Source of the DNA: Rhodoferax sp. OV413
GTDB lineage: Bacteria > Pseudomonadota > Gammaproteobacteria > Burkholderiales > Burkholderiaceae_C
NCBI RefSeq assembly: GCF_900104385.1
Contig: NZ_FNJA01000001.1
Span: 1,276,386-1,340,385, forward strand
Direction of reading: 5' to 3'
DNA: 64,000 nucleotides
Part shown: positions 17,760-25,114 of the stretch, piece after piece
Numbering within the stretch: position 1 is the first letter of the stretch
How the letters are laid out: each line of letters starts with the position of its first letter
Position numbers and translations under genes: made by a program
Notes under the pieces: generated by a model
The model's database searches: none
What the model saw: the letters and a program-made list of their open reading frames with translations, nothing else
What the model was told of the DNA's origin: nothing

Positions 17760-18476
17760 TCACCCCCACCACCGAAACAGCAACGGCATCAGCACGGATG
17801 ACAGCACCGCCTGCATCCCCAGCGCGATACCCGCATACGCCCCGGCATCTGGATGTACTTGCAAGGCTCTGGCCGCGCCAATGCCGTGCGAGGCCGTGCC
17901 CAAGGCAAAGCCGCGTACCGCCCAGGAATCTATCTTCAGCAGATTGAACAGGTACTTGCCCGACAAGGCACCGACCAGCCCTGTCAGTACGGCAAACACG
18001 GCGGCCAATGCCGGCACCCCGCCCAAACGCTCAGCGATGCCCATGGCGACGGGCGCGGTGACAGACTTGGGTGCTAGCGAGCGCAGTACCTCGTCAGGCA
18101 GTCCCAGTGCCCAAGCGATGGCCACAGCGCTGGTGGCCGCAGCCAGGCCGCCCGCCAGTACGGCCAGAGTCAGTGCCACTCCCCGTTGGCGCACTTCGGC
18201 GCGCCGCAGCCACAGCGGCCAGGCTAGCGCCACCACCGCCGGCCCCAGCAGCACGTGCACAAACTGGGCTCCCGCAAAATAAGACGGATACGGCGTGTGG
18301 GTCCACACCAGCAAACCTCCCAGCACAACCACCGACCACAGCACCGGATTCGCCCAAGGCGCACGCTGGACCCTCTCGTACACCGCCTGGACGGCTACAT
18401 AAGTTAGTAAGGTGGCCGTCAAGCCAAATAGCGGCGTGGCCGACAGATAGACCCATAATTGCACAAAGTCAGTCAT
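17760..18476 (-). CDS. lrgB: LrgB/CidB-family membrane protein
   Basis: 238 residues, hydrophobic, with about six to seven membrane segments. The conserved region near the C-terminus reads GTASHGIGAARAL, typical of LrgB. The LrgA/LrgB pair is known as a holin/antiholin-like modulator of murein hydrolase activity, and also as a pyruvate or glycolate transporter in some organisms. It overlaps lrgA by 8 bp. It is downstream of the regulator gene on the same strand. Confidence 0.88.
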   Translation of the reverse strand: MTDFVQLWVYLSATPLFGLTATLLTYVAVQAVYERVQRAPWANPVLWSVVVLGGLLVWTHTPYPSYFAGAQFVHVLLGPAVVALAWPLWLRRAEVRQRGVALTLAVLAGGLAAATSAVAIAWALGLPDEVLRSLAPKSVTAPVAMGIAERLGGVPALAAVFAVLTGLVGALSGKYLFNLLKIDSWAVRGFALGTASHGIGAARALQVHPDAGAYAGIALGMQAVLSSVLMPLLFRWWG

Positions 18477-18834
18477 GCGGACCCTTCTGCAAGGCTTGCT
18501 TGCGCAGCAGCGCCTGCAGTACCCAGGCGGTTACCGCCAGGCCGATCCAGGTGGACAGCACAATCACCACCAGCAGCTGTAAGCCATACTGGGACACCAG
18601 TTGCAGATGGGTCACGACACCCACGCCGACCGGCACAAACAGCAGGGACAGATGGGCAAGCAGCAATTCAGCCATGGCCGACACAGGCTCGCGCACCCAA
18701 GTCCATCGCAAAGCAGGCAACAGCAGCACCAAGCCCACCACCGGGCCTGGAAACGGCAATCCGAACAGGCGCGTCACGCTCTCGCCCGCCGCCTGCAACA
18801 GCAGCAGAAATGCCAAGCCACGCAATGCCATCAT
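18469..18834 (-). CDS. lrgA: LrgA/CidA-family membrane protein
   Basis: 121 residues from the ATG at 18834, which follows a strong GGGGAGGA site by 6 nt; the frame is open further upstream only through a TTG. Four membrane helices are visible, with PFPGPVVGLVLLL near residue 27 and LLFVPVGVGVVTHL near 65 as in LrgA. It pairs with lrgB and lies 89 bp behind the VpsR-like regulator. Confidence 0.85.
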   Translation of the reverse strand: MMALRGLAFLLLLQAAGESVTRLFGLPFPGPVVGLVLLLPALRWTWVREPVSAMAELLLAHLSLLFVPVGVGVVTHLQLVSQYGLQLLVVIVLSTWIGLAVTAWVLQALLRKQALQKGPHD

Positions 18835-18923
18835 GGATATCCTCCCCGGGGTGTTGCCACAGTCCACCCAGCATAGCGGCAAAGCAGCGGCCCAAGACAG
18901 TGGGGGGTAACGGAAAGACGGCG

Positions 18924-20264
18924 CTATTCAGCGCACTGGACGATGCTGTGCTTGTCCATCAGGCGGTACAAGGTCATGCGGGATATACCCAGCTCGCGTG
19001 CGGCCAAGGTCACGTTGCGGCCTACGCGGGTCAGGGTCAGGCAGATCGCATCGCGCTCGGCCAGGGTACGGGCGGCATCCAGTCCCAGCACCTCGATTCT
19101 TTCTGCCGCCTGCAAGCCTAGGTCCGCAGGGCAGATCAGTCGCTGGTCGGCCATCACGACTGCGCGCCGCACCCGGTTGTGCAGTTCGCGCACATTGCCT
19201 GGCCAGTTGTGCGCCAGCATCGCCGCGATCGCTTGCCGACGGAAGCCTTCGACCCGGGTATTGCCCTCGCCGATGCAGCAGCGCAGAAAATGCTCGGCCA
19301 GCACCGGCACGTCCTCCATGCGGCTGCGCAGCGGCGGCACCTCGATGGGCAGCACGTTTAGCCGGTAATACAGGTCTTCGCGGAAACGCCCCTTGGCCAC
19401 GGCTTCAGCCAGGTCGACGTGGGACGCAGCCACCACCCGCACATCCACCGCCAAGCTGCGCACGGCGCCCACACGCGTGATGGTCTTTTCCTGCAGAAAG
19501 CGCAGCAGACTGGTTTGCAGCTCCAGCGGCAGGTCGCCAATTTCATCCAGAAAAATGGTGCCATTGTTGGCCGCTTCGATGAAGCCGTTGCGCTGGGACG
19601 AGGCCCCGGTAAAAGCGCCGCGCTCATGACCAAACAGCTCCGAATGGATCAACGAAGGCGAGATGGCGCCGCAATTGACCGCAATGAACGGCCCATCCGA
19701 CCGGCGTGAATAGCGGTGGATGGCTTGCGCCGCCAACTCCTTGCCACTGCCACTTTCCCCGGCTATCAACACCGGGGCGGCCGTGACAGCCACTTTGCGT
19801 ATCTGCTGGCGCAAATGCTTGATGGCCGAACCACGCCCCACCATGCCCAGCGCGCCCGCTTCATGCTCTTGGGCGTAATAGCGTTGTCGCAAGGTGGCGC
19901 GCCGCGCCGCATGCTCGAGGAACAGTGCCAGCGCCGGCCAATCCAGCGGCAAAGTCTGGTAACCAAAGAAGAAACCCAGTATCAGCTCCCGGAACTCCGA
20001 CTTCTCCAGGGCCTGGCTATCGCACACCGCCACCCACTCCGACCCCTTGGACGCTTTGACGCAAGCCTCCAACGCGCCGTCGGGCACGGGGTGCCCCGCC
20101 CCCAGCACCAGCAGGCTCACCGGAAAATGCCGATGGGACTGGATACGCCCGGCCGCCAATAGGTCGGAGACCTGTTCGACCTCCCAGCCTGCGGCACGCA
20201 GATGGGACGCAACCGCGCCTGCATCGTCACCCAGACCCACGCACAGGATGTTTCGAACCGCCAT
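18924..20264 (-). CDS. VpsR-like sigma-54 enhancer-binding regulator
   Basis: About 446 residues. The N-terminal 130 residues (MAVRNILCVGLGDD onward) are a receiver-like domain without an obvious phosphoacceptor pocket, as in VpsR. The AAA+ domain has Walker A GESGSGKE (about 169-176), an intact GAFTGA loop (216-221) that contacts sigma-54, and Walker B TIFLDEIGDL (236-245). A Fis-type helix-turn-helix is at the C-terminus (LAARELGISRMTLYRLM). A TTG at 20279 overlapping the upstream stop is an alternative start. It is co-directional with, and 11 bp behind, the outer-membrane protein gene. VpsR family members control biofilm matrix genes. Confidence 0.83.
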   Translation of the reverse strand: MAVRNILCVGLGDDAGAVASHLRAAGWEVEQVSDLLAAGRIQSHRHFPVSLLVLGAGHPVPDGALEACVKASKGSEWVAVCDSQALEKSEFRELILGFFFGYQTLPLDWPALALFLEHAARRATLRQRYYAQEHEAGALGMVGRGSAIKHLRQQIRKVAVTAAPVLIAGESGSGKELAAQAIHRYSRRSDGPFIAVNCGAISPSLIHSELFGHERGAFTGASSQRNGFIEAANNGTIFLDEIGDLPLELQTSLLRFLQEKTITRVGAVRSLAVDVRVVAASHVDLAEAVAKGRFREDLYYRLNVLPIEVPPLRSRMEDVPVLAEHFLRCCIGEGNTRVEGFRRQAIAAMLAHNWPGNVRELHNRVRRAVVMADQRLICPADLGLQAAERIEVLGLDAARTLAERDAICLTLTRVGRNVTLAARELGISRMTLYRLMDKHSIVQCAE

Positions 20265-20275
20265 GGTGAGACCTG

Positions 20276-21568
20276 TCAAAACGATACCGGAATCCTGACG
20301 GTCAGCGTCAAATTAGGTGTATCCGGGGTCAGGCCTGCAGCTACCGATACGTTCACCGTTGTCTTGGGGTCCACCCGGTACGAGTAGCCGAGCAGCAAGG
20401 ACGCCAGCTGCGTACGGACCGAACTTGCGACCGGCGCACCGTTTTGCCGGGTTCGGGCAATCGAGTTGAGGTCCACCCCCATGCTGAAGGTGGAGCGCTC
20501 GTTCAACGCCAGGCCCATACCGAAATTGACGCCCAGCACACCGCCAGGCTTGATGGTGCCAATCAATTCGCTTTGCCCCCCCAGGACCATGCGATGCACG
20601 TTGTCACGGCCAAAATTATGGGTGTAGCTAAAGCTACCGAAGAACACCGCGGGGTCCGATGGGAGCAGCCAGGTCAGGCCGGTTTGCAACGAATAAAAAC
20701 CCGAACCGGTGGGCAGCTCCAGCGGCAAACCGGTACCGGTGGTATTGCCGATGCAACGGGTCACGCAGTCGGTCACCACCTCAAAAGGATCTTTACCCGT
20801 GCGCGACTTGAAGCGCAGTGAGCCGATCATGAAGGGGAAATTGCCTTTGGGCTGGTTCAGCTGGTAGCGCGCTGCAAATTCGATATCACCCACCGACATG
20901 CCGCTGCTGTTGAAGGCCCGGTCGGATGCGGTCCCGGTAAATATCTCGCGGCTGACGGTAGAGTCCGAACGGTAGACATAAGGCACCTTGACCTCCGCCT
21001 CCAAACGGTTCGTCAGGCCCCAGCGTGCAGCGAGGGCTGCGGTCGTCACATTGCGCTTCACTTCGCGCACATCGATCAGGCCAATCAGCAGCGCCGGGAT
21101 CACGGTGTACCCCACCAAGGCCACGCGGTTGCTCGACGAGTAGCCGTACTGCACCGACGGCTCCAGCACATAGTGGCCAGGCGGCGTCAGAATGCCGGGC
21201 TGGTCGAACAGCTGGGCGACTTTGGGCGGCTGCACCTCCGCGCTAGGCGCCACACCCACGCGTATCGACTGGGTACCGTCAGCGCCATCAGCGGGCTGGT
21301 TACTCGCCATCGCCGGGTTCTCGGTACGCTCATTGGCTGGGGCTTCCTGGTTGGCCCCGCCCGGCTGTCGACCCGCCTGTTCAGCCACCTGCTGTCGCAA
21401 TGCCTCGATCTGTCGGCCCTGCTCGGCGACCAGCCGCTGCAGTGCCTCGATTCGCTGGTCCACCGTGCTGGACAGTGGTGTCTCCTGTGCATATGCGCTA
21501 GCACAGAGCAACGCTACGGAAGAACAGGCCAGTTGCAAGACGGGCCGATTCTGGCGGAAGACTCTCAT
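20276..21568 (-). CDS. Outer-membrane beta-barrel protein with N-terminal coiled coil (FapF-like)
   Basis: 430 residues from ATG 21568, which has AAGGAG 8 nt upstream. A signal peptide ends at about AYA-Q (27/28). Residues 34-64 form a coiled coil (VDQRIEALQRLVAEQGRQIE), then a polar linker to about 110, then an antiparallel beta barrel (VLEPSVQYGYSSSNR onward) ending in IPVSF with the C-terminal Phe used by the BAM machinery. This layout matches FapF, the trimeric amyloid-exporting pore of Pseudomonas, and the Phenol_MetA_deg-type barrel. The gene is divergent from the Gly-rich exported protein gene. Assignment rests on architecture and context. Confidence 0.65.
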   Translation of the reverse strand: MRVFRQNRPVLQLACSSVALLCASAYAQETPLSSTVDQRIEALQRLVAEQGRQIEALRQQVAEQAGRQPGGANQEAPANERTENPAMASNQPADGADGTQSIRVGVAPSAEVQPPKVAQLFDQPGILTPPGHYVLEPSVQYGYSSSNRVALVGYTVIPALLIGLIDVREVKRNVTTAALAARWGLTNRLEAEVKVPYVYRSDSTVSREIFTGTASDRAFNSSGMSVGDIEFAARYQLNQPKGNFPFMIGSLRFKSRTGKDPFEVVTDCVTRCIGNTTGTGLPLELPTGSGFYSLQTGLTWLLPSDPAVFFGSFSYTHNFGRDNVHRMVLGGQSELIGTIKPGGVLGVNFGMGLALNERSTFSMGVDLNSIARTRQNGAPVASSVRTQLASLLLGYSYRVDPKTTVNVSVAAGLTPDTPNLTLTVRIPVSF

Positions 21569-21823
21569 GGACTTGCTCCTTGTAGTCAAGGCATCGCCTT
21601 GCTTTTTCTTGTGTCCTGATTTTGTATTGCCACGTACAAATTGTGTACAAACTTCACCTTCAAATTGAAACTGTACGTAAACCACTTTAAATAATTGACT
21701 GTCACACAATTGAGGCAGTCTTTTTATCTGGTTTATCACCCATCCATTGAACAACCAACGCAAGTCCTGCCCTTGCTGGCAGCGCTTGTCGAGACGTTCC
21801 GCCCGCGGCTTGTGCCGTTAACC

Positions 21824-21843
21824 CTGTCTCACGCATGTGACAG
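21824..21843. promoter_or_regulatory. Candidate enhancer site (CTGTC-N-CAC-GCAT-GTG-ACAG)
   Basis: The near-perfect inverted repeat CTGTCTCACGCATGTGACAG lies about 240 bp upstream of the sigma-54-like promoter. Its TGT-N12-ACA form resembles, but is 2 bp longer than, the TGT-N10-ACA sites of NifA-type activators. It is the best candidate site for the VpsR-like activator. Confidence 0.4.
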
Positions 21844-22066
21844 CAGCCGCGAGCACATCCACATATGCATGCAAAAAAGGCCTGGAAACAGCCTGGTTTA
21901 CGCCGCTCGGTGCTGTAGCCCGCCACCTGGCCAGTCACGGAATCGTTACAAACCCGGCCTGCCGATCGCATCCACAAGCTTGCCAACGCCCCCATCCGCA
22001 TACAGATCTGCTCCAAAAACAGTGTTTACCCGCAGAAATCGCATACAAAACTAAAGAAAAAAATGT

Positions 22067-22083
22067 AGGCACACAAAATGCAA
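22067..22083 (+). promoter_or_regulatory. Sigma-54 (-24/-12) promoter
   Basis: AGGCACA-CAAA-ATGCA contains the invariant GG (22068-22069) and GC (22080-22081) exactly 10 bp apart. GGCAC and TGCA match the consensus TGGCACG-N4-TTGCA. Transcription would start near 22092, about 80 bp before the ATG of the Gly-rich protein gene. Confidence 0.6.
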
Positions 22084-22172
22084 ATGCTGATTTGGAGTTG
22101 TGGCGCCATGGCTCGGAGCTGTGCACCGTGACTCGATTTAGGACCTTTCTACTTTCAACGTTTGGAGGATTT

Positions 22173-23429
22173 ATGAAAACAACGCTTCTAGCTACCGCTC
22201 TCACTGCGATATTCGGGTTAAGCAATGTGGCACTGGCCAGCGACATCGACACGGATATCACGCAGCGGGCCCGCACCGGTGACAACACCAGCACAGTCAC
22301 CACGACCAACACGGATACGCGGACGGATTCCAGTACGAATACCAAAACCTATACGGACACGGATACCAAGACCATCACCAAAACCAACTCCAGCACCAAC
22401 TCCAAGAGCTATGCGAACAGCAGCACCAACTACCGTGACACAGGCGCTGCCCGCGCCACCGACCGGTCTGCTGCGCTGAACAACGGCTCCACAGGCACCT
22501 TTACCAATGCCTTCAATGTGGCCACCGCCACCGCCACCAGCAAGCTGGAAGGGTCTGTCTCCGGCAACCGCATCTACGGCATTGGCAACGACGCCTACAA
22601 CACCGGCAATGCCAATGGCGGAAGAGCCTATGGCGGCGACGGCGGCAATGCCAAGGGCGGCTATGCATCCGGCAAGGGCAATGGCGGCAGCGGTGGCGAA
22701 GGCTACGGCGACGATGGCGGCAACGGTGGCAGGGCCTCGGTGGGCAGCGTCAGCACCAAGGCCAGCAACGGCAGTGCATCTGCAGGCAAAGGCGGCAGCG
22801 GCTGGGGTGGCAATGCCAGCGGCGGCGACCGCTCGGGCCGGGCCATTGCCAACGGCGACAACGGCGGCAGCAGCGGCAGAGCCATTGCGAATGCCAACGG
22901 CACCGGCACCGGCTCTGGTAGCAATGGCGACGGCGACACCGGCACCGCTACCGGCACAGGCACGGGTACCGGCTCAGGCGGTACCAGCACGTCCGGTGCA
23001 GGCGGCGCAGGTGGTGCAGGCGGCACCGCATCGGCCAATGCAGGCGGCAGCACCCGTACGGCCGGAGCCGGCTCTGGTGGTGCAGGCGGTGCAGCTACCA
23101 ATGGCAGCGCAACCGGTGGTGCAGCCACTGGCGGCACGGCCACGGCAGGTGCCGGTGGCGCAGGCGGCGCAGGCACAGGTGGTGCCGGTGGCGCAGGCAA
23201 CGGCGGCGTCAACACTGCCCAAGGCGGCACAGGCGGCGCGGGCTCTGGCGGCGTAGGCGGCGCAGGCGGAACCAACTCGGTGAACGCAGGCACGTTCAAC
23301 ATGTCGAACACCATGACCAGCGTTGGCCAGTCGGCCGCCGGCATCATGGTGGCCAGCCAAAACAGCGGCATTGCTTCGCTCGTTCAGCAAAGTGTGAACG
23401 TACAAGCCAACCTGAACGTGGGTCAGTAA
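22173..23429 (+). CDS. Exported Gly/Asn/Thr/Ala-rich low-complexity protein, putative amyloid or adhesin subunit
   Basis: 418 residues from ATG 22173, which has GGAGG 4 nt upstream; the frame is open further upstream without a signal peptide. The signal peptide ends at ALA-S (22/23). Residues 24-75 are Thr/Asp/Asn/Ser-rich (TDTRTDSSTNTKTYTDTDTK). Residues about 130-365 are GGxG-type glycine repeats (GGAGGAGGTA and similar). The C-terminal 45 residues are free of Gly repeats and read SVGQSAAGIMVASQNSG then LVQQSVNVQANLNV, an N/Q amphipathic beta pattern like amyloid subunits. There are no cysteines. No characterised family is recognised with certainty; context suggests the main fibre subunit. 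Confidence 0.7.
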   Translation: MKTTLLATALTAIFGLSNVALASDIDTDITQRARTGDNTSTVTTTNTDTRTDSSTNTKTYTDTDTKTITKTNSSTNSKSYANSSTNYRDTGAARATDRSAALNNGSTGTFTNAFNVATATATSKLEGSVSGNRIYGIGNDAYNTGNANGGRAYGGDGGNAKGGYASGKGNGGSGGEGYGDDGGNGGRASVGSVSTKASNGSASAGKGGSGWGGNASGGDRSGRAIANGDNGGSSGRAIANANGTGTGSGSNGDGDTGTATGTGTGTGSGGTSTSGAGGAGGAGGTASANAGGSTRTAGAGSGGAGGAATNGSATGGAATGGTATAGAGGAGGAGTGGAGGAGNGGVNTAQGGTGGAGSGGVGGAGGTNSVNAGTFNMSNTMTSVGQSAAGIMVASQNSGIASLVQQSVNVQANLNVGQ

Positions 23430-23445
23430 CGCGTAGCCGGTAAGG

Positions 23446-23481
23446 CCATGCTGTCTGTGCCCCAGGGTGCAGACGGCATGG
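23446..23481 (+). promoter_or_regulatory. 36-nt intergenic stem-loop
   Basis: CCATGC / GCATGG form a perfect outer stem. An inner stem, GTCTGTGCCC / GGGTGCAGAC, adds about ten pairs with two G-U pairs and a 2-nt loop. It starts 17 bp after the stop of the Gly-rich protein gene and has no U-tract. It may protect the upstream mRNA or reduce read-through, giving more of the major subunit than of the downstream proteins. Confidence 0.55.
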
Positions 23482-23533
23482 CGGATACCGGTACACCCCA
23501 CCCACTCCACCGAGAGACCGAGGGGACAATGCC

Positions 23534-23887
23534 ATGCAATCAACAATATTCCGCTGGCCGGGCGGCTTGGCGCTGGCCTGCGCACTAGTGGCGCCGGCCC
23601 TGGCGCAAACCCAGGACACAGGCAGCACTGCGGCCCGTGCAGCCTTCAGCAAACCGGTAGCACTGGCCGAGCTGGGCAACTACCGCGGCGGCAGCCAGTT
23701 CGTCCACAACGACATCACACTGGCCGGCACCACGGCGGACAACTCCGCGCAGCAGGTGACCACCGGCAACAACGCCATCAGCTCCGGCGCCTTTGCCAAT
23801 ATGAGCGGCATACCGGTGGTGATCCAGAACTCTGGCGCCAACGTGCTGATACAGAACGCGGTCATCCTGCATCTGCAGATCGATTGA
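23534..23887 (+). CDS. Small exported protein with double-glycine motif
   Basis: 117 residues. The signal peptide ends at ALA-Q (24/25). A stretch AELGNYRGG (45-53) fits the C39-peptidase leader consensus: Glu -8, Leu -7, hydrophobic -4, Gly -2, Gly -1. The remaining 64 residues are N/Q/S-rich with beta-strand alternation (GIPVVIQNSGANVLIQNAVI). The QNSG element is shared with the C-terminus of the large Gly-rich protein. RBS GAGGGGAC lies just upstream. It could be a minor or nucleator fibre subunit; no characterised family is assigned. Confidence 0.7.
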   Translation: MQSTIFRWPGGLALACALVAPALAQTQDTGSTAARAAFSKPVALAELGNYRGGSQFVHNDITLAGTTADNSAQQVTTGNNAISSGAFANMSGIPVVIQNSGANVLIQNAVILHLQID

Positions 23888-23897
23888 CGGCGGCACC

Positions 23898-24578
23898 ATG
23901 CGCAGCCTGCTGCTTTCCTTAGCGCTACTCGCCGGCACCGGCGTAGCACCGGCGCAGACTGCGCATCTGCCGTCCATGGGCGCGGGCGACTTCCGCGTAC
24001 CGGTCACCAGCATCCGCGAAGCCCGCTGGGCCGGCACCCTGCTGCAGCAATACGATTTCAGCTGCGGCTCCGCAGCCCTCGCCACCCTGCTGACCCACCA
24101 CTATGGCTACCCGGTCAGCGAGCAAACCGTGTTCGAAGAAATGTACGCACAGGGCGACCAGCAAAAGATCCAGCGCGAAGGCTTCTCCTTGCTCGACATG
24201 AAGCGCCTGCTGGCCAAGCTCGGCTTCGAAGCCGACGGCTTTGAGCAGCCGCTGGAGAAACTCAACGAGGCCAATGTGCCCGCCATCGTGCTGATCAACG
24301 AGAAGGGCTACCACCATTTCGTGGTGGTCAAAGGCGTGCAACCCGACCGGGTGCTGATCGGCGACCCAGCGCAAGGCACGCGGGCCGTGGCGCGCCAGGC
24401 GTTTGACGCCAGCTGGCAAAACCGCGTGCTGTTCGTCGTGCACAACCGCATGGACACGGCCCGCTTCAACCTGCAGGCCGACTGGCGCGTAGCACAGCGC
24501 GCGCCCGTCAGCGATGGGCTGAACCGCATCGGTGCTGCGGGCATCACCCTGCCCCGCCTCGGGCCTGGAGACTTCTGA
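23898..24578 (+). CDS. Periplasmic C39-family cysteine peptidase (FapD-like)
   Basis: 226 residues. The signal peptide ends near APA-Q (19/20), so this is a stand-alone exported peptidase rather than the peptidase domain of an ABC exporter. C39 motifs are QQYDFSCGSAAL, with oxyanion Gln50/51 and nucleophile Cys56, then His140 in YHHFVVVKG and Asp156 in GDPAQG. C39 enzymes cleave after double-glycine leaders, and both neighbouring exported proteins carry such a motif. FapD of Pseudomonas Fap operons is the nearest functional parallel. It lies 10 bp behind the previous gene and overlaps the next (TGATG). Confidence 0.82.
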   Translation: MRSLLLSLALLAGTGVAPAQTAHLPSMGAGDFRVPVTSIREARWAGTLLQQYDFSCGSAALATLLTHHYGYPVSEQTVFEEMYAQGDQQKIQREGFSLLDMKRLLAKLGFEADGFEQPLEKLNEANVPAIVLINEKGYHHFVVVKGVQPDRVLIGDPAQGTRAVARQAFDASWQNRVLFVVHNRMDTARFNLQADWRVAQRAPVSDGLNRIGAAGITLPRLGPGDF

Positions 24579-25114
24579 TGCGCGCCCCTCGCCCCATGAT
24601 CTTGAGCAAGCGCGGACGCAACCTCTGCCTGTTCGCCATCCTGGCGATCCTGGCCTATTTTTCCGACCGAGCCGATGCAGGCCAACCTGCGGACAACAGC
24701 CTGTGGCGCACCGTCAGCAACAGCACCCTGGACAAACTGCGCGGCGGCTTTGACATTGGCGCGGGGCTGCAGGTCAGCTTCGGCATCACCCGCACCGTGT
24801 ACATCAATGGCGCACTGATCACAGAAACTACCCTGAGCCTGGGCGAGCTGTCCCAGCTGACGCCCGCACAGGCGGCGCAGCTCAATGGCCAGATCGCCGG
24901 ATTGAACCTGGTGCAGGTCGGCACGGGCAATAGCGTGCCCAACGCGGTGGCCAACCTGGGGGCGGGCACCGTCATCCAGAACACGCTGAACAACCAGCAG
25001 ATCAATGTGCAGACCTTGATCAACGCCAGCTCCAACGGCCTGGGCATAGTGCGCAGCATGAACGCCCAAGGCACTATCGACGATGCCCTGGCCCGCGCGA
25101 TTGCACCACGCTGA
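24578..25114 (+). CDS. Exported N/Q-rich protein with double-glycine motif
   Basis: 178 residues. The N-terminal signal is atypically long, with a basic region to residue 14 and a hydrophobic core (16-28) ending near ADA-G (34/35). NSTLDKLRGG (48-57) fits the C39 leader rule (Leu -7, Leu -4, Gly -2, Gly -1). The rest has beta-like N/Q segments, GTVIQNTLNNQQINVQTL being the clearest. The start overlaps the peptidase stop (TGATG). Position and composition suggest a FapE-like accessory or a second fibre component. MILSK (residue 7) is an alternative start. Confidence 0.68.
   Translation: MRAPRPMILSKRGRNLCLFAILAILAYFSDRADAGQPADNSLWRTVSNSTLDKLRGGFDIGAGLQVSFGITRTVYINGALITETTLSLGELSQLTPAQAAQLNGQIAGLNLVQVGTGNSVPNAVANLGAGTVIQNTLNNQQINVQTLINASSNGLGIVRSMNAQGTIDDALARAIAPR

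Follow-up and report, generated by a model that had tools for sequence, protein, structure and literature searches.

The six genes analysed here probably encode a Fap-type fibre secretion machine that belongs to a separate branch and acts by the mechanism proposed below. They lie in a 64,000 nucleotide stretch of DNA from Rhodoferax sp. OV413 (the window), and the locus is apparently a widespread cousin of the Pseudomonas Fap export machine that has so far gone undescribed. A search of the main texts of open-licence PMC literature returned no description of the cassette and no FapD cut site; Supplementary Figure 18 of Rouse 2017, on FapE motifs, fell outside its scope. A paper about biofilm genes in Variovorax contributed nothing of relevance. 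A sequence-only reading had described a divergent six-gene locus, and all six genes were found to be open, at or close to the coordinates it gave. The gene of the FapF-like barrel is divergent from the row of large, small, D and E-like genes, and the stop codon of the peptidase gene overlaps the ATG of the gene for the 178-aa protein (ATGA at 24578). A summary of the features is shown in Table 1.

Table 1. Features of the locus (positions in the window)
Feature	Position	Strand	Remarks
Enhancer-binding activator, sigma-54 type	18924..20264	-	446 aa, ATG at 20264; translation and Pfam
FapF-like outer-membrane barrel	20276..21568	-	430 aa, ATG at 21568; NCBIfam and PDB matches
UAS-like palindrome	21700..21717	+	2 mismatches to TGTCACA-N4-TGTGACA
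UAS-like palindrome TGTCTCA-CGCA-TGTGACA	21825..21842	+	1 mismatch to TGTCACA-N4-TGTGACA
Candidate sigma-54 (-24/-12) promoter AGGCACACAAAATGCA	22067..22082	+	90 bp 5' of the ATG of the Gly-rich gene
Large exported Gly-rich protein	22173..23429	+	418 aa; candidate main fibre protein
C-module of the 418-aa protein, conserved, GQSAAGIMVASQNSG..LVQQSVNVQANL	23271..23426	+	
Small exported protein	23534..23887	+	117 aa; one QN-rich stretch
Double-glycine leader of the 117-aa protein, VALAELGNYRGG	23657..23692	+	residues 42-53
FapD-like C39 peptidase, stand-alone, Sec-exported (predicted)	23898..24578	+	226 aa
Exported protein in FapE position	24578..25114	+	178 aa
Double-glycine leader of the 178-aa protein	24713..24748	+	residues 46-57, ends LDKLRGG

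Related loci were collected by way of the peptidase, so that its presence in each is given and that of the other genes is not. The core set, consisting of genes for the Gly-rich, small exported, FapD-like, second exported and FapF-like proteins, was complete in all 52 named relatives with full flanks (more than 20 kb in total), which bears out the co-occurrence of neighbours for which a survey had been suggested. An activator was present in 38 of these loci, and no strong activator was found within the other 14. In the branch the genes follow one another as large, small, D and E-like, and F may lie on either strand. The cassette was also found in Dyella and Luteibacter. Its small genes, accompanied by FapD and FapF, occur in Photobacterium and Vibrio, and in Croceicoccus, an alphaproteobacterium; the label 'betaproteobacterial', given to the branch by the sequence-only reading, is thus too narrow. 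A class-wide draw of 369 genomes contained the FapD of the present branch in 14 genomes besides the window's own, and a canonical-scoring FapF in 16. Some members belong to species that can be grown, among them Cupriavidus metallidurans CH34, where the cassette lies at about 67-73 kb of NC_007974.2, and this makes the branch accessible to experiment.

The barrel matched the FapF model NF058560 over residues 14-429 (9.7e-47, 159.7 bits against a model cut-off of 700, which no genome among the 369, the canonical ones included, passes) and the FapF structure 5o67 in the PDB (E 2.1e-32). An ordinary solute porin was rejected on the strength of this FapF homology in NCBIfam and the PDB. The C-terminal residue is Phe, as had been read before. 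E111, R157, a basic residue at K401 and the second PTG of FapF are kept, while plug E98/Phe-Phe and the first PTG are not; the plug region reads F-[DE]-Q-P-G-x-L-T-P, in the place taken in canonical FapF by the end of the plug helix and Phe, and the branch has a conserved Cys pair (C268/C272). The motif L-x3-RG-[GRKAQTS] occurred in the N-terminal parts of 40 of 105 FapF members of the branch, compared with 3.75 in shuffles, and was not found in this linker of the window's own FapF. The kept second PTG would also suit an uptake channel of the COG4313 type for hydrophobic compounds, with the exported proteins as periplasmic or surface accessories, and passages of Rouse 2018 relate FapF to such channels (PMC6173800). 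This is extremely unlikely: the FapF match is nearly full-length, and in all 52 full-flank loci, each found via the peptidase, the barrel gene keeps company with genes for a FapD-like peptidase and exported QN proteins. According to the same passages, no C39 peptidase is on record beside COG4313 channels.

The peptidase matched the FapD model NF058616 of NCBIfam (7.1e-42, 143 bits, model cut-off 330), and Q50, C56, H140 and D156 were invariant among 16 aligned sequences. The parallel to Fap drawn earlier from a FapF-like pore and a FapD-like peptidase was thereby upheld. In the FapD tree, where the window's peptidase is represented by its relatives L014 and L015 and not by its own sequence, the present branch (support 100/99) is separate from Fap (99/89) and from Fil, in agreement with the distinct branch that had been supposed.

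Double-glycine leaders have conserved positions at -12, -7, -4, -2 and -1. Both the 117-aa and the 178-aa protein carry such a leader, of the form L-x3-R-G-G. In the 117-aa protein L47, G52 and G53 were invariant in 35 aligned sequences (the window's and 34 of 79 relatives), and [LM]x3RGG was found in 89 of 103 unique family members; among the 14 without it, L171 and L172 retain GG without the R, and L075 and L082 are misses in which a larger repeat protein was picked instead of the family member. In the 178-aa family R[GA]G was found in 108 of 108 loci, as RAG in L153 only, and the leader end lay more than 120 residues in for 10 of 90 members with a called signal peptide. A short helix is predicted at residues 48-54 of the window's protein, in a model of moderate quality (pLDDT 69). 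Ninety-nine leaders of this family had L at -7 in 98, M or L at -4 in 77, V, A or L at -12 in 96 and F at +1 in 96. These windows had been picked for RGG followed by one of F, L, M, Y or A, and -3 to -1, and partly +1, are therefore given by the selection. Other exported-looking reading frames of 80 loci had the motif in 7 of 1683 cases. As far as sequence can tell, the 178-aa leaders fit the C39 substrate pattern (hydrophobic residues at -12, -7 and -4, Gly at -2 and -1), and the leaders of both proteins suggest what the FapD-like protease may cut.

Bacteriocin-type leaders beside a C39 peptidase could also denote a secreted bacteriocin or toxin system, in which the peptidase would mature double-glycine antimicrobial peptides and the barrel let them out. 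Such a system is very unlikely here: the peptidase stands alone and is predicted to be Sec-exported, no ABC exporter is among the six proteins (flanking genes were read by eye only), the partner barrel is a relative of FapF, and the C-parts of the 117- and 178-aa proteins have a QN repeat in common, the former with one stretch distantly similar to the FapB repeat. For a Fap-type machine the leader motif provides exact candidate FapD cut sites and makes the question of the FapD substrate directly testable. That substrate was 'yet to be determined' in a passage of 2018 (PMC6173800), and in a review of December 2025 FapE and FapF are named as the proteins that FapD 'is thought to process' (PMC12822426).

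A scoring matrix trained on the leaders of the 178-aa family alone had its best position at LxxxRG[RK] in 15 of 16 canonical FapE proteins, which came from the class-wide model search and included none from Pseudomonas itself. This site is a candidate FapD site. C39 sites known so far are GG or GA, and cleavage of FapE at G-[RK] would therefore be atypical. The LxxxRG site was not found in hand-picked FapB (7), FapC (10) and FapD (9) sequences; some best positions in FapB and FapC were leader-like without the RG (for example EDRVLAGASGV, P 0.04). Alignment of FapE with the 178-aa profile was limited to the leader and about 18 residues after it. The FapE model gave no match to protein P0006 of the window or elsewhere in its genome, a FapE search of plasmids gave none, and order-level searches aimed at Pseudomonas (9 and 4 genomes) returned none above the cut-off.

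Against Pfam at E 1 the three exported proteins gave no match, and their only two NCBIfam matches were irrelevant (E 0.08 and 0.83). The FapB and FapC models NF058557 and NF058558 did not match them at E 1, and the three-repeat signature of FapB/C was not found in them by curated models. The view that the fibre proteins are not FapB/C is accordingly sustained as far as curated models go, but the 117-aa family has its one stretch distantly like a FapB repeat. Likewise, of the three proteins said to be N/Q/G-rich, the 418-aa one is strongly Gly-rich (42% Gly across residues 146-366) and the others, by eye, are not N/Q/G-rich overall. The 418-aa protein consists, in order, of a signal peptide, a Thr/Asn/Ser-rich stretch, an N-module, the Gly-rich middle and a C-module. 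Both modules are conserved, the N-module being detected in 74 of 80; the middle is variable (34-942 aa, median 267; median Gly 42%). The leader motif [LM]x3RGG was found in none of 94 members of this family.

This build, unlike that of the three-repeat FapC, and the lack of a match to the FapB/C models favour a silk-like Gly-rich surface adhesin or matrix layer that would be exported by a Fap-type machine and would not be amyloid, a reading we consider unlikely. QN-spaced units are of the kind that stacks in curli and Fap, and a QN-spaced stretch common to the C-modules of the Gly-rich and 117-aa proteins tells against it; yet the large C-module had no significant profile match to the FapB/C repeats (P 0.11). 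When the profile of the 178-aa family was set against that of the Gly-rich C-module, 3 of 100 column shuffles reached the real score, which gives no support for a relationship.

The activator has a VpsR-type N-terminal domain (PF20161, 2.5e-9), a sigma-54 activation domain (Sigma54_activat PF00158, 3.5e-70) with the intact GAFTGA loop read before, and a Fis-type HTH (HTH_8 PF02954, 3.1e-7). The regulator had been called different from that of Fap. This does not hold: five of six hand-picked regulators adjoining canonical Fap loci have a VpsR domain above the Pfam cut-off, and Fap of P. fluorescens is, in passages of PMC13101488, driven by BrfA, a c-di-GMP enhancer-binding protein. A sigma-54-type site lies 5' of the Gly-rich gene at 49 of 54 starts in relatives, compared with a null of 12%; similar sites exceeded the null at two other genes as well, lying 5' of the pore gene in 19 of 52 cases and of the 117-aa gene in 24 of 52. 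Of the sites of the palindrome TGTCACA-N4-TGTGACA, 41 lay close to where the operon starts, spread over 33 of 52 loci, and 2 lay elsewhere; none was found in the other 19 loci, and 14 canonical loci had only one. Counted in the window by itself, neither the sigma-54 pattern nor the palindrome was more frequent than expected by chance. VpsR domain, GAFTGA, putative sigma-54 promoter and upstream dyad appear to make up the features of a VpsR/BrfA-type regulon. Three features had escaped the sequence-only reading: the upstream palindrome, the sigma-54 promoter and the leaders of the double-glycine type.

The following mechanism is proposed. At high c-di-GMP the VpsR-type activator would bind the TGTCACA-N4-TGTGACA sites and open the sigma-54 promoter of the four-gene rightward operon, whose four products would all use Sec to cross the inner membrane. 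Once in the periplasm, the 117- and 178-aa proteins would be cut behind the double-glycine leader by the FapD-like C39 peptidase, and this cutting would license their export through the FapF-like pore together with the Gly-rich protein. Outside the cell the Gly-rich protein would be the main fibre protein, with the 117-aa protein as nucleator or minor subunit and the 178-aa FapE-like protein as anchor or tip. A bolder version, to which we give an even chance, holds that the FapD-type peptidases of Fap, Fil and the present branch read one bacteriocin-type leader behind a Sec signal peptide (hydrophobic at -7/-4, Gly at -2), partly also in the FapF linker. FapE, not an amyloid subunit, would then be the processed export licence, and the fibre of the present branch would be a silk-like Gly-rich protein with conserved end modules, not an amyloid of the FapC type. 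Part of a review (PMC12822426) pictures Fap as evolutionarily 'fixed'; that picture is to be qualified, since its survey demanded FapB/C repeats, which are absent here by curated models.

Among known systems, curli (Csg) is similar in that QN-spaced repeats leave via a dedicated outer-membrane pore; no Csg family of Pfam or NCBIfam was matched by the six proteins. Double-glycine (C39/PCAT) bacteriocin export has the C39 sequence family and the leader positions in common with the present branch, but differs in that the peptidase here is predicted to be Sec-exported, free of an ABC transporter, with substrates predicted to travel via Sec. The Fil system (FilA-F, 'putative pilus' in NCBIfam) shares the superfamily of peptidase and pore (FilB 6e-36, FilC 4e-15), and its FilA/DUF6160-like proteins have a leader-like x-D-x-E-L-x-x-V-x-G site behind the signal peptide, but the present FapD falls in a separate clade. 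FilA/DUF6160 and FilD partners were found in L100. A Fil pilus system was ruled out, the six proteins having no match to DUF6160 or FilD (FadL-type) in Pfam and NCBIfam. The fap operon proper (fapABCDEF, Pseudomonas) was ruled out by the negative FapB/C/E models. The present branch differs from it in the absence of three-repeat FapB/FapC and of any FapA-like gene seen, in a gene order other than fap(A)BCDEF, in a leader ending in GG where canonical FapE has G-[RK], in a FapF with changed plug residues and first PTG and an additional Cys pair, and in a FapD clade of its own. It resembles Fap in its FapF-like pore, its Sec-exported (predicted) FapD-like C39 peptidase, its exported FapE-like protein with an LxxxRG leader and a VpsR-domain activator nearby.

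All six genes of the locus are open in the window, as the sequence-only reading had them (table). The barrel protein most likely starts at the ATG at 21568 rather than at the TTG of the open reading frame listing. The C39 peptidase and 178-aa genes share an ATGA overlap. By eye, Sec-signal-peptide-like N-termini are present in the window on all four rightward products and on the barrel; signal peptides in relatives were called by a simple hydrophobicity rule. Just past the activator (17760-18882, minus strand) lie two overlapping membrane-protein genes, by eye resembling an LrgA/LrgB-type pair.

Features of the locus in window coordinates
Feature	Position	Direction	Remark
Activator	18924-20264	leftward	open reading frame
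Barrel protein, FapF-like	20276-21568	leftward	open reading frame
TGTCACA-N4-TGTGACA-like sites, up to 2 mismatches	21700-21717; 21825-21842		only two in window; in 604-bp divergent intergenic region
Candidate sigma-54 site	22067-22082		AGGCACACAAAATGCA; upstream of BIG
Gly-rich protein, 418 aa (family BIG)	22173-23429	rightward	
117-aa protein (family S117)	23534-23887	rightward	
C39 peptidase	23898-24578	rightward	
178-aa protein (family S178)	24578-25114	rightward	

The barrel matches the NCBIfam FapF model over residues 14-429 (9.7e-47, 159.7 bits, cut-off 700) and, by phmmer, the solved FapF (5o67) over residues 115-428 (2.1e-32). The peptidase matches the NCBIfam FapD model (7.1e-42, 143 bits, cut-off 330) and Pfam C39 (1.2e-24). 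The proposed FapF-like and FapD-like nature of the two proteins is borne out by these searches. Residues Q50, C56, H140 and D156 of the peptidase, which we take to be the catalytic set, are invariant across 16 aligned sequences. The genome holds one FapF-model and one FapD-model match. Since none of the 369 genomes of the class-wide draw passes the FapF cut-off, model cut-offs alone do not set the locus apart from Fap.

A scan of named genomes with the FapD alignment gave at least 582 relatives. Among the best 80 of these, which were kept, S117 and FapD were found in 80, S178 in 78, BIG in 77, FapF in 71 and a strong activator in 51 (E cut-offs <1e-100 for the activator, 1e-12 for S178, 1e-15 for S117 and 1e-4 for the others). 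Because the loci were found through FapD, its presence is no evidence and only the other genes count. In the loci longer than 20 kb (full-flank loci) the five core genes are present in 52/52 and the activator in 38/52; the neighbours do co-occur in other genomes, as anticipated. Genera with the cassette among the best 80 include Rhodoferax, Polaromonas, Variovorax, Ralstonia, Cupriavidus, Paraburkholderia, Pandoraea, Massilia, Duganella, Dyella and Luteibacter. The megaplasmid record of Cupriavidus metallidurans CH34 shows all five core genes, and a plasmid record of Photobacterium sp. DA100 shows these and a linked activator, with a weak BIG match (1.5e-6). Plasmid records of Vibrio sp. SCSIO 43009 and the alphaproteobacterium Croceicoccus marinus also show relatives, neither locus matching the BIG model. 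The FapD-like gene of the Vibrio plasmid (relative locus L192:5414-6092) is broken or mis-sequenced, since it is split over two reading frames. On the 762-kb C. marinus plasmid an IS5-family transposase (L191:1714-2535) lies close upstream of the cassette, hinting at spread via mobile elements.

Of the 369 genomes in the even class-wide draw, 69 have a FapF-model match at E 1e-3, in many cases limited to a short stretch. The strong matches split into 17 at 307-456 bits (from 16 genomes) and 17 at 111-171 bits, the latter excluding the window's own match, which scores 159. In the checked high-group loci (L053, L054, L057) NCBIfam recognises FapC above its cut-off and FapB and FapE below theirs. 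For 14 of the 17 lower-group matches the FapD forms one clade with the window's relatives; of the other three, G213 has a FapD outside the clade, and the stretches fetched for G369 and G424 contain no FapD. In the window's own family the FapF model matches in 41/299 genomes; the 19 strong matches (window included) lie at 140-180 bits, with none in the canonical range. A FapD tree (78 rows) sets Fap (12 rows; 99/89), Fil (6 rows; 100/99) and the clade of the window's relatives, here called the branch (58 rows; 100/99), each on one side of a tree branch. Of the branch loci from the named scan, every third was used for this tree; the window's row was left out, with its relatives L014 (84% identical) and L015 (83%) included. 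A canonical Fap locus (L059) and a branch cassette (L067) occur together in genome G071, about 89 kb apart on one contig; therefore neither simply replaces the other. Further FapD/FapF pairs outside all three clades (L070:1274-4271 and L104) have exported neighbours with leader-like stretches ending TAGN, YAGG or EGTG.

Compared on FapF features taken from passages of Rouse 2017 (PMC5557850), branch FapF retains E111, R157 and the basic character of K401, and most of the rows shown also have the second PTG. Branch FapF differs from canonical FapF by mostly having RTG at the first PTG, and F-[DE]-Q-P-G-[VI]-L-T-P mostly replaces the canonical plug helix end and Phe. Between the two PTG sites, nearly all of 44 aligned branch FapF have a pair of Cys residues (C268 and C272 in the window), whereas the 13 canonical rows shown have none; from the sequences, a disulfide gate is possible.

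A -24/-12 sigma-54 site (own consensus and weights, threshold score 16.5) was found upstream of BIG at 49 of 54 starts in full-flank loci versus 12% in shuffles (mean score 18.3 vs 14.9). The excess is weaker before S117 (24/52, null 16%) and FapF (19/52, null 13%) and absent before FapD (8/52, null 13%). The window's site weighs by its position, because about two such bare patterns are expected per 64 kb. Upstream of the sigma-54 sites, GTCAC-N6-GTGAC occurs in 23 of 53 regions searched (shuffled maximum 3), the window's region being one of the 53 and not among the 23. TGTCACA-N4-TGTGACA with up to two mismatches has 41 sites at -450 to +300 of the BIG reading frame start, in 33/52 loci, versus 2 sites in the rest of the same loci (1.05 vs 0.0019 per kb); the pattern was derived from these upstream regions, with the remainder of the loci serving as control. 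Across 14 canonical loci there was a single occurrence. With three mismatches, its number in the window is within chance. A VpsR domain was found in the window's activator and in those of three other branch loci; it lies above the Pfam cut-off in 5/6 canonical Fap-locus activators (sixth weak, 0.0017) and is very strong in that of the Photobacterium locus (6e-48), the ten compared with the window's being hand-picked. In P. fluorescens PF07, according to passages of PMC13101488, fap is driven by BrfA, a c-di-GMP-sensing enhancer-binding protein. The activator of the present locus would bind the TGTCACA-N4-TGTGACA palindromes and c-di-GMP.

The Gly-rich protein consists of a Thr-rich stretch (residues 24-88), an N-module, a Gly-rich middle and a C-module. 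Both modules are conserved, the N-module being found in 74/80 relatives; the middle is 42% Gly in the window and 34-942 aa long in relatives. In profile comparisons, with P-values for single comparisons, the S117 C-module resembles the C-part of S178 (P 4e-7), the C-module of BIG (P 2e-4) and FapB (P 3e-4; whole S117 2e-4), each with 0/100 shuffles as high. S178 against the BIG C-module (3/100 shuffles as high) and the BIG C-module against FapB/C repeats (P 0.11) were not significant. In loci L082 (3758-8144) and L075 (5593-6504), one or two larger proteins carry clear 'NNAFQHAEGITQVQQNNGSNNAMQQ'-like repeats, in appearance halfway between those of S117 and of FapB/C.

In S178 a double-glycine leader sits between signal peptide and mature part. 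It reads R[GA]G followed by one of FLMYAI in 108/108 loci (99 unique), with RAG in L153 only. A stricter regional count gave 98/102 unique; of its misses, L097 and L182 were recovered by a later script and L076 (RGGI) by eye. Counted from the putative cut point (-1, last Gly), the 99 leader windows have L at -7 in 98, M or L at -4 in 77 and F at +1 in 96; positions -3 to -1 are fixed by window selection, as are the R-x-G-F columns of the S178 alignment (rows picked by R[GA]GF). From the nearest signal-peptide-like start to the end of the leader there are at most 80 residues in 76/90, 81-120 in 4/90 and more than 120 in 10/90, the last having a long insertion ahead of the leader; the rule called no signal peptide in 9/99. 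The leader is at residue 242 of the open frame in C. metallidurans and at residue 40 in Croceicoccus (LSEEVLARQRGG). An AlphaFold model of the 178-aa protein (pLDDT 69, moderate) has a short helix (48-54) right before the GG, then beta strands and a C-terminal helix. S117 shows [LM]x3RGG in 89/103 unique sequences, and L47, G52 and G53 are invariant in 35 sequences (window and 34/79 relatives) aligned regardless of the motif. Of the 14 misses, L171 and L172 retain GG without R, in L075 and L082 the larger repeat protein was picked instead, and the remainder have RGR, RGM, RAK or similar and come mostly from other orders of the class. BIG has the motif in 0/94 unique sequences. Within residues 19-120 in the 80 named loci, the motif occurs in 68/77 S117, 66/77 S178, 6/67 FapF and 7/1683 other exported-looking reading frames.

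A position matrix trained solely on S178 leaders was applied to other proteins. Its best match was an LxxxRG[RK]-type site in 11/11 hand-picked FapE and LxxxRGK in 2/8 FapF. The FapE of Aeromonas caviae reads ELADGELAHLRGR|YV. No best match with LxxxRG was found in hand-picked FapB (7), FapC (10) or FapD (9); several FapB and FapC best matches are leader-like without it (top EDRVLAGASGV, P 0.04). Among 16 FapE from 15 genomes of a class-wide FapE-model search, which include most hand-picked ones, the motif is the best match in 15 (shuffle P 0.003-0.013 in 12, 0.06-0.19 in three); in the sixteenth it is present and another position scores higher. A comparable site is present in four small FapA-like proteins (P 0.003-0.10). 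Aligned as profiles, S178 and FapE match across the leader and roughly 18 residues beyond it (P 2e-5, 0/100 column shuffles as high). In Fil-type proteins a leader-like site is the best position in 13/14, mostly not significant with this matrix (P 0.01-0.50). All three scanned Fil-type exported proteins match DUF6160, one slightly below cut-off, and the leader of Fil substrates may be part of what DUF6160 describes. In Fil-type loci L100 (2976-6685), L098 and L102 several exported proteins are encoded in tandem, and each shows a D-x-E-L-x-x-V-x-G-like site. The N-terminal parts of branch FapF carry L-x3-R-G-[GRKAQTS] in 40/105 unique sequences versus 3.75 expected from shuffles (largest 9), counts that are less than independent as the sequences are related; L074, L086, L170 and L188 are examples, and the window's own FapF lacks an L-x3-R-G site there. 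Such a site may let the peptidase free the coiled coil from the barrel.

In passages of Rouse 2017 (PMC5557850), FapC secretion needs the FapD active-site Cys, N-terminal peptides are missing from mass spectrometry for FapE alone, and the FapF linker is possibly cut, with GG and GA motifs mentioned. The FapD substrate is called undetermined in a passage of Rouse 2018 (PMC6173800), and a 2025 review (PMC12822426), in a passage citing 2013 and 2017 work, has FapD thought to process FapE and FapF. The leader offers a precise candidate site for these earlier hints. The existence of FapD/FapF relatives was already known, since unspecific matches led Dueholm 2013 (PMC3792158, in part) to infer larger families for both and Rouse 2018 gave, in a further passage, fapD-fapF pairs in five further phyla. 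No description of the cassette, its leaders or its promoter was found in the open-licence PMC literature searched; surveys requiring FapB/C repeats, as in passages of PMC12822426, probably miss it. FapB/C repeats, a FapE-model match and the Fap gene order were each sought at the locus and none was found, and for this reason it is not placed in the Fap family. Judged by its gene content (Sec export, a C39 peptidase in the periplasm, a dedicated pore, products with QN repeats), it appears to work like Fap, and its most fitting place is as a third branch of the FapD-FapF superfamily, alongside Fap and Fil.
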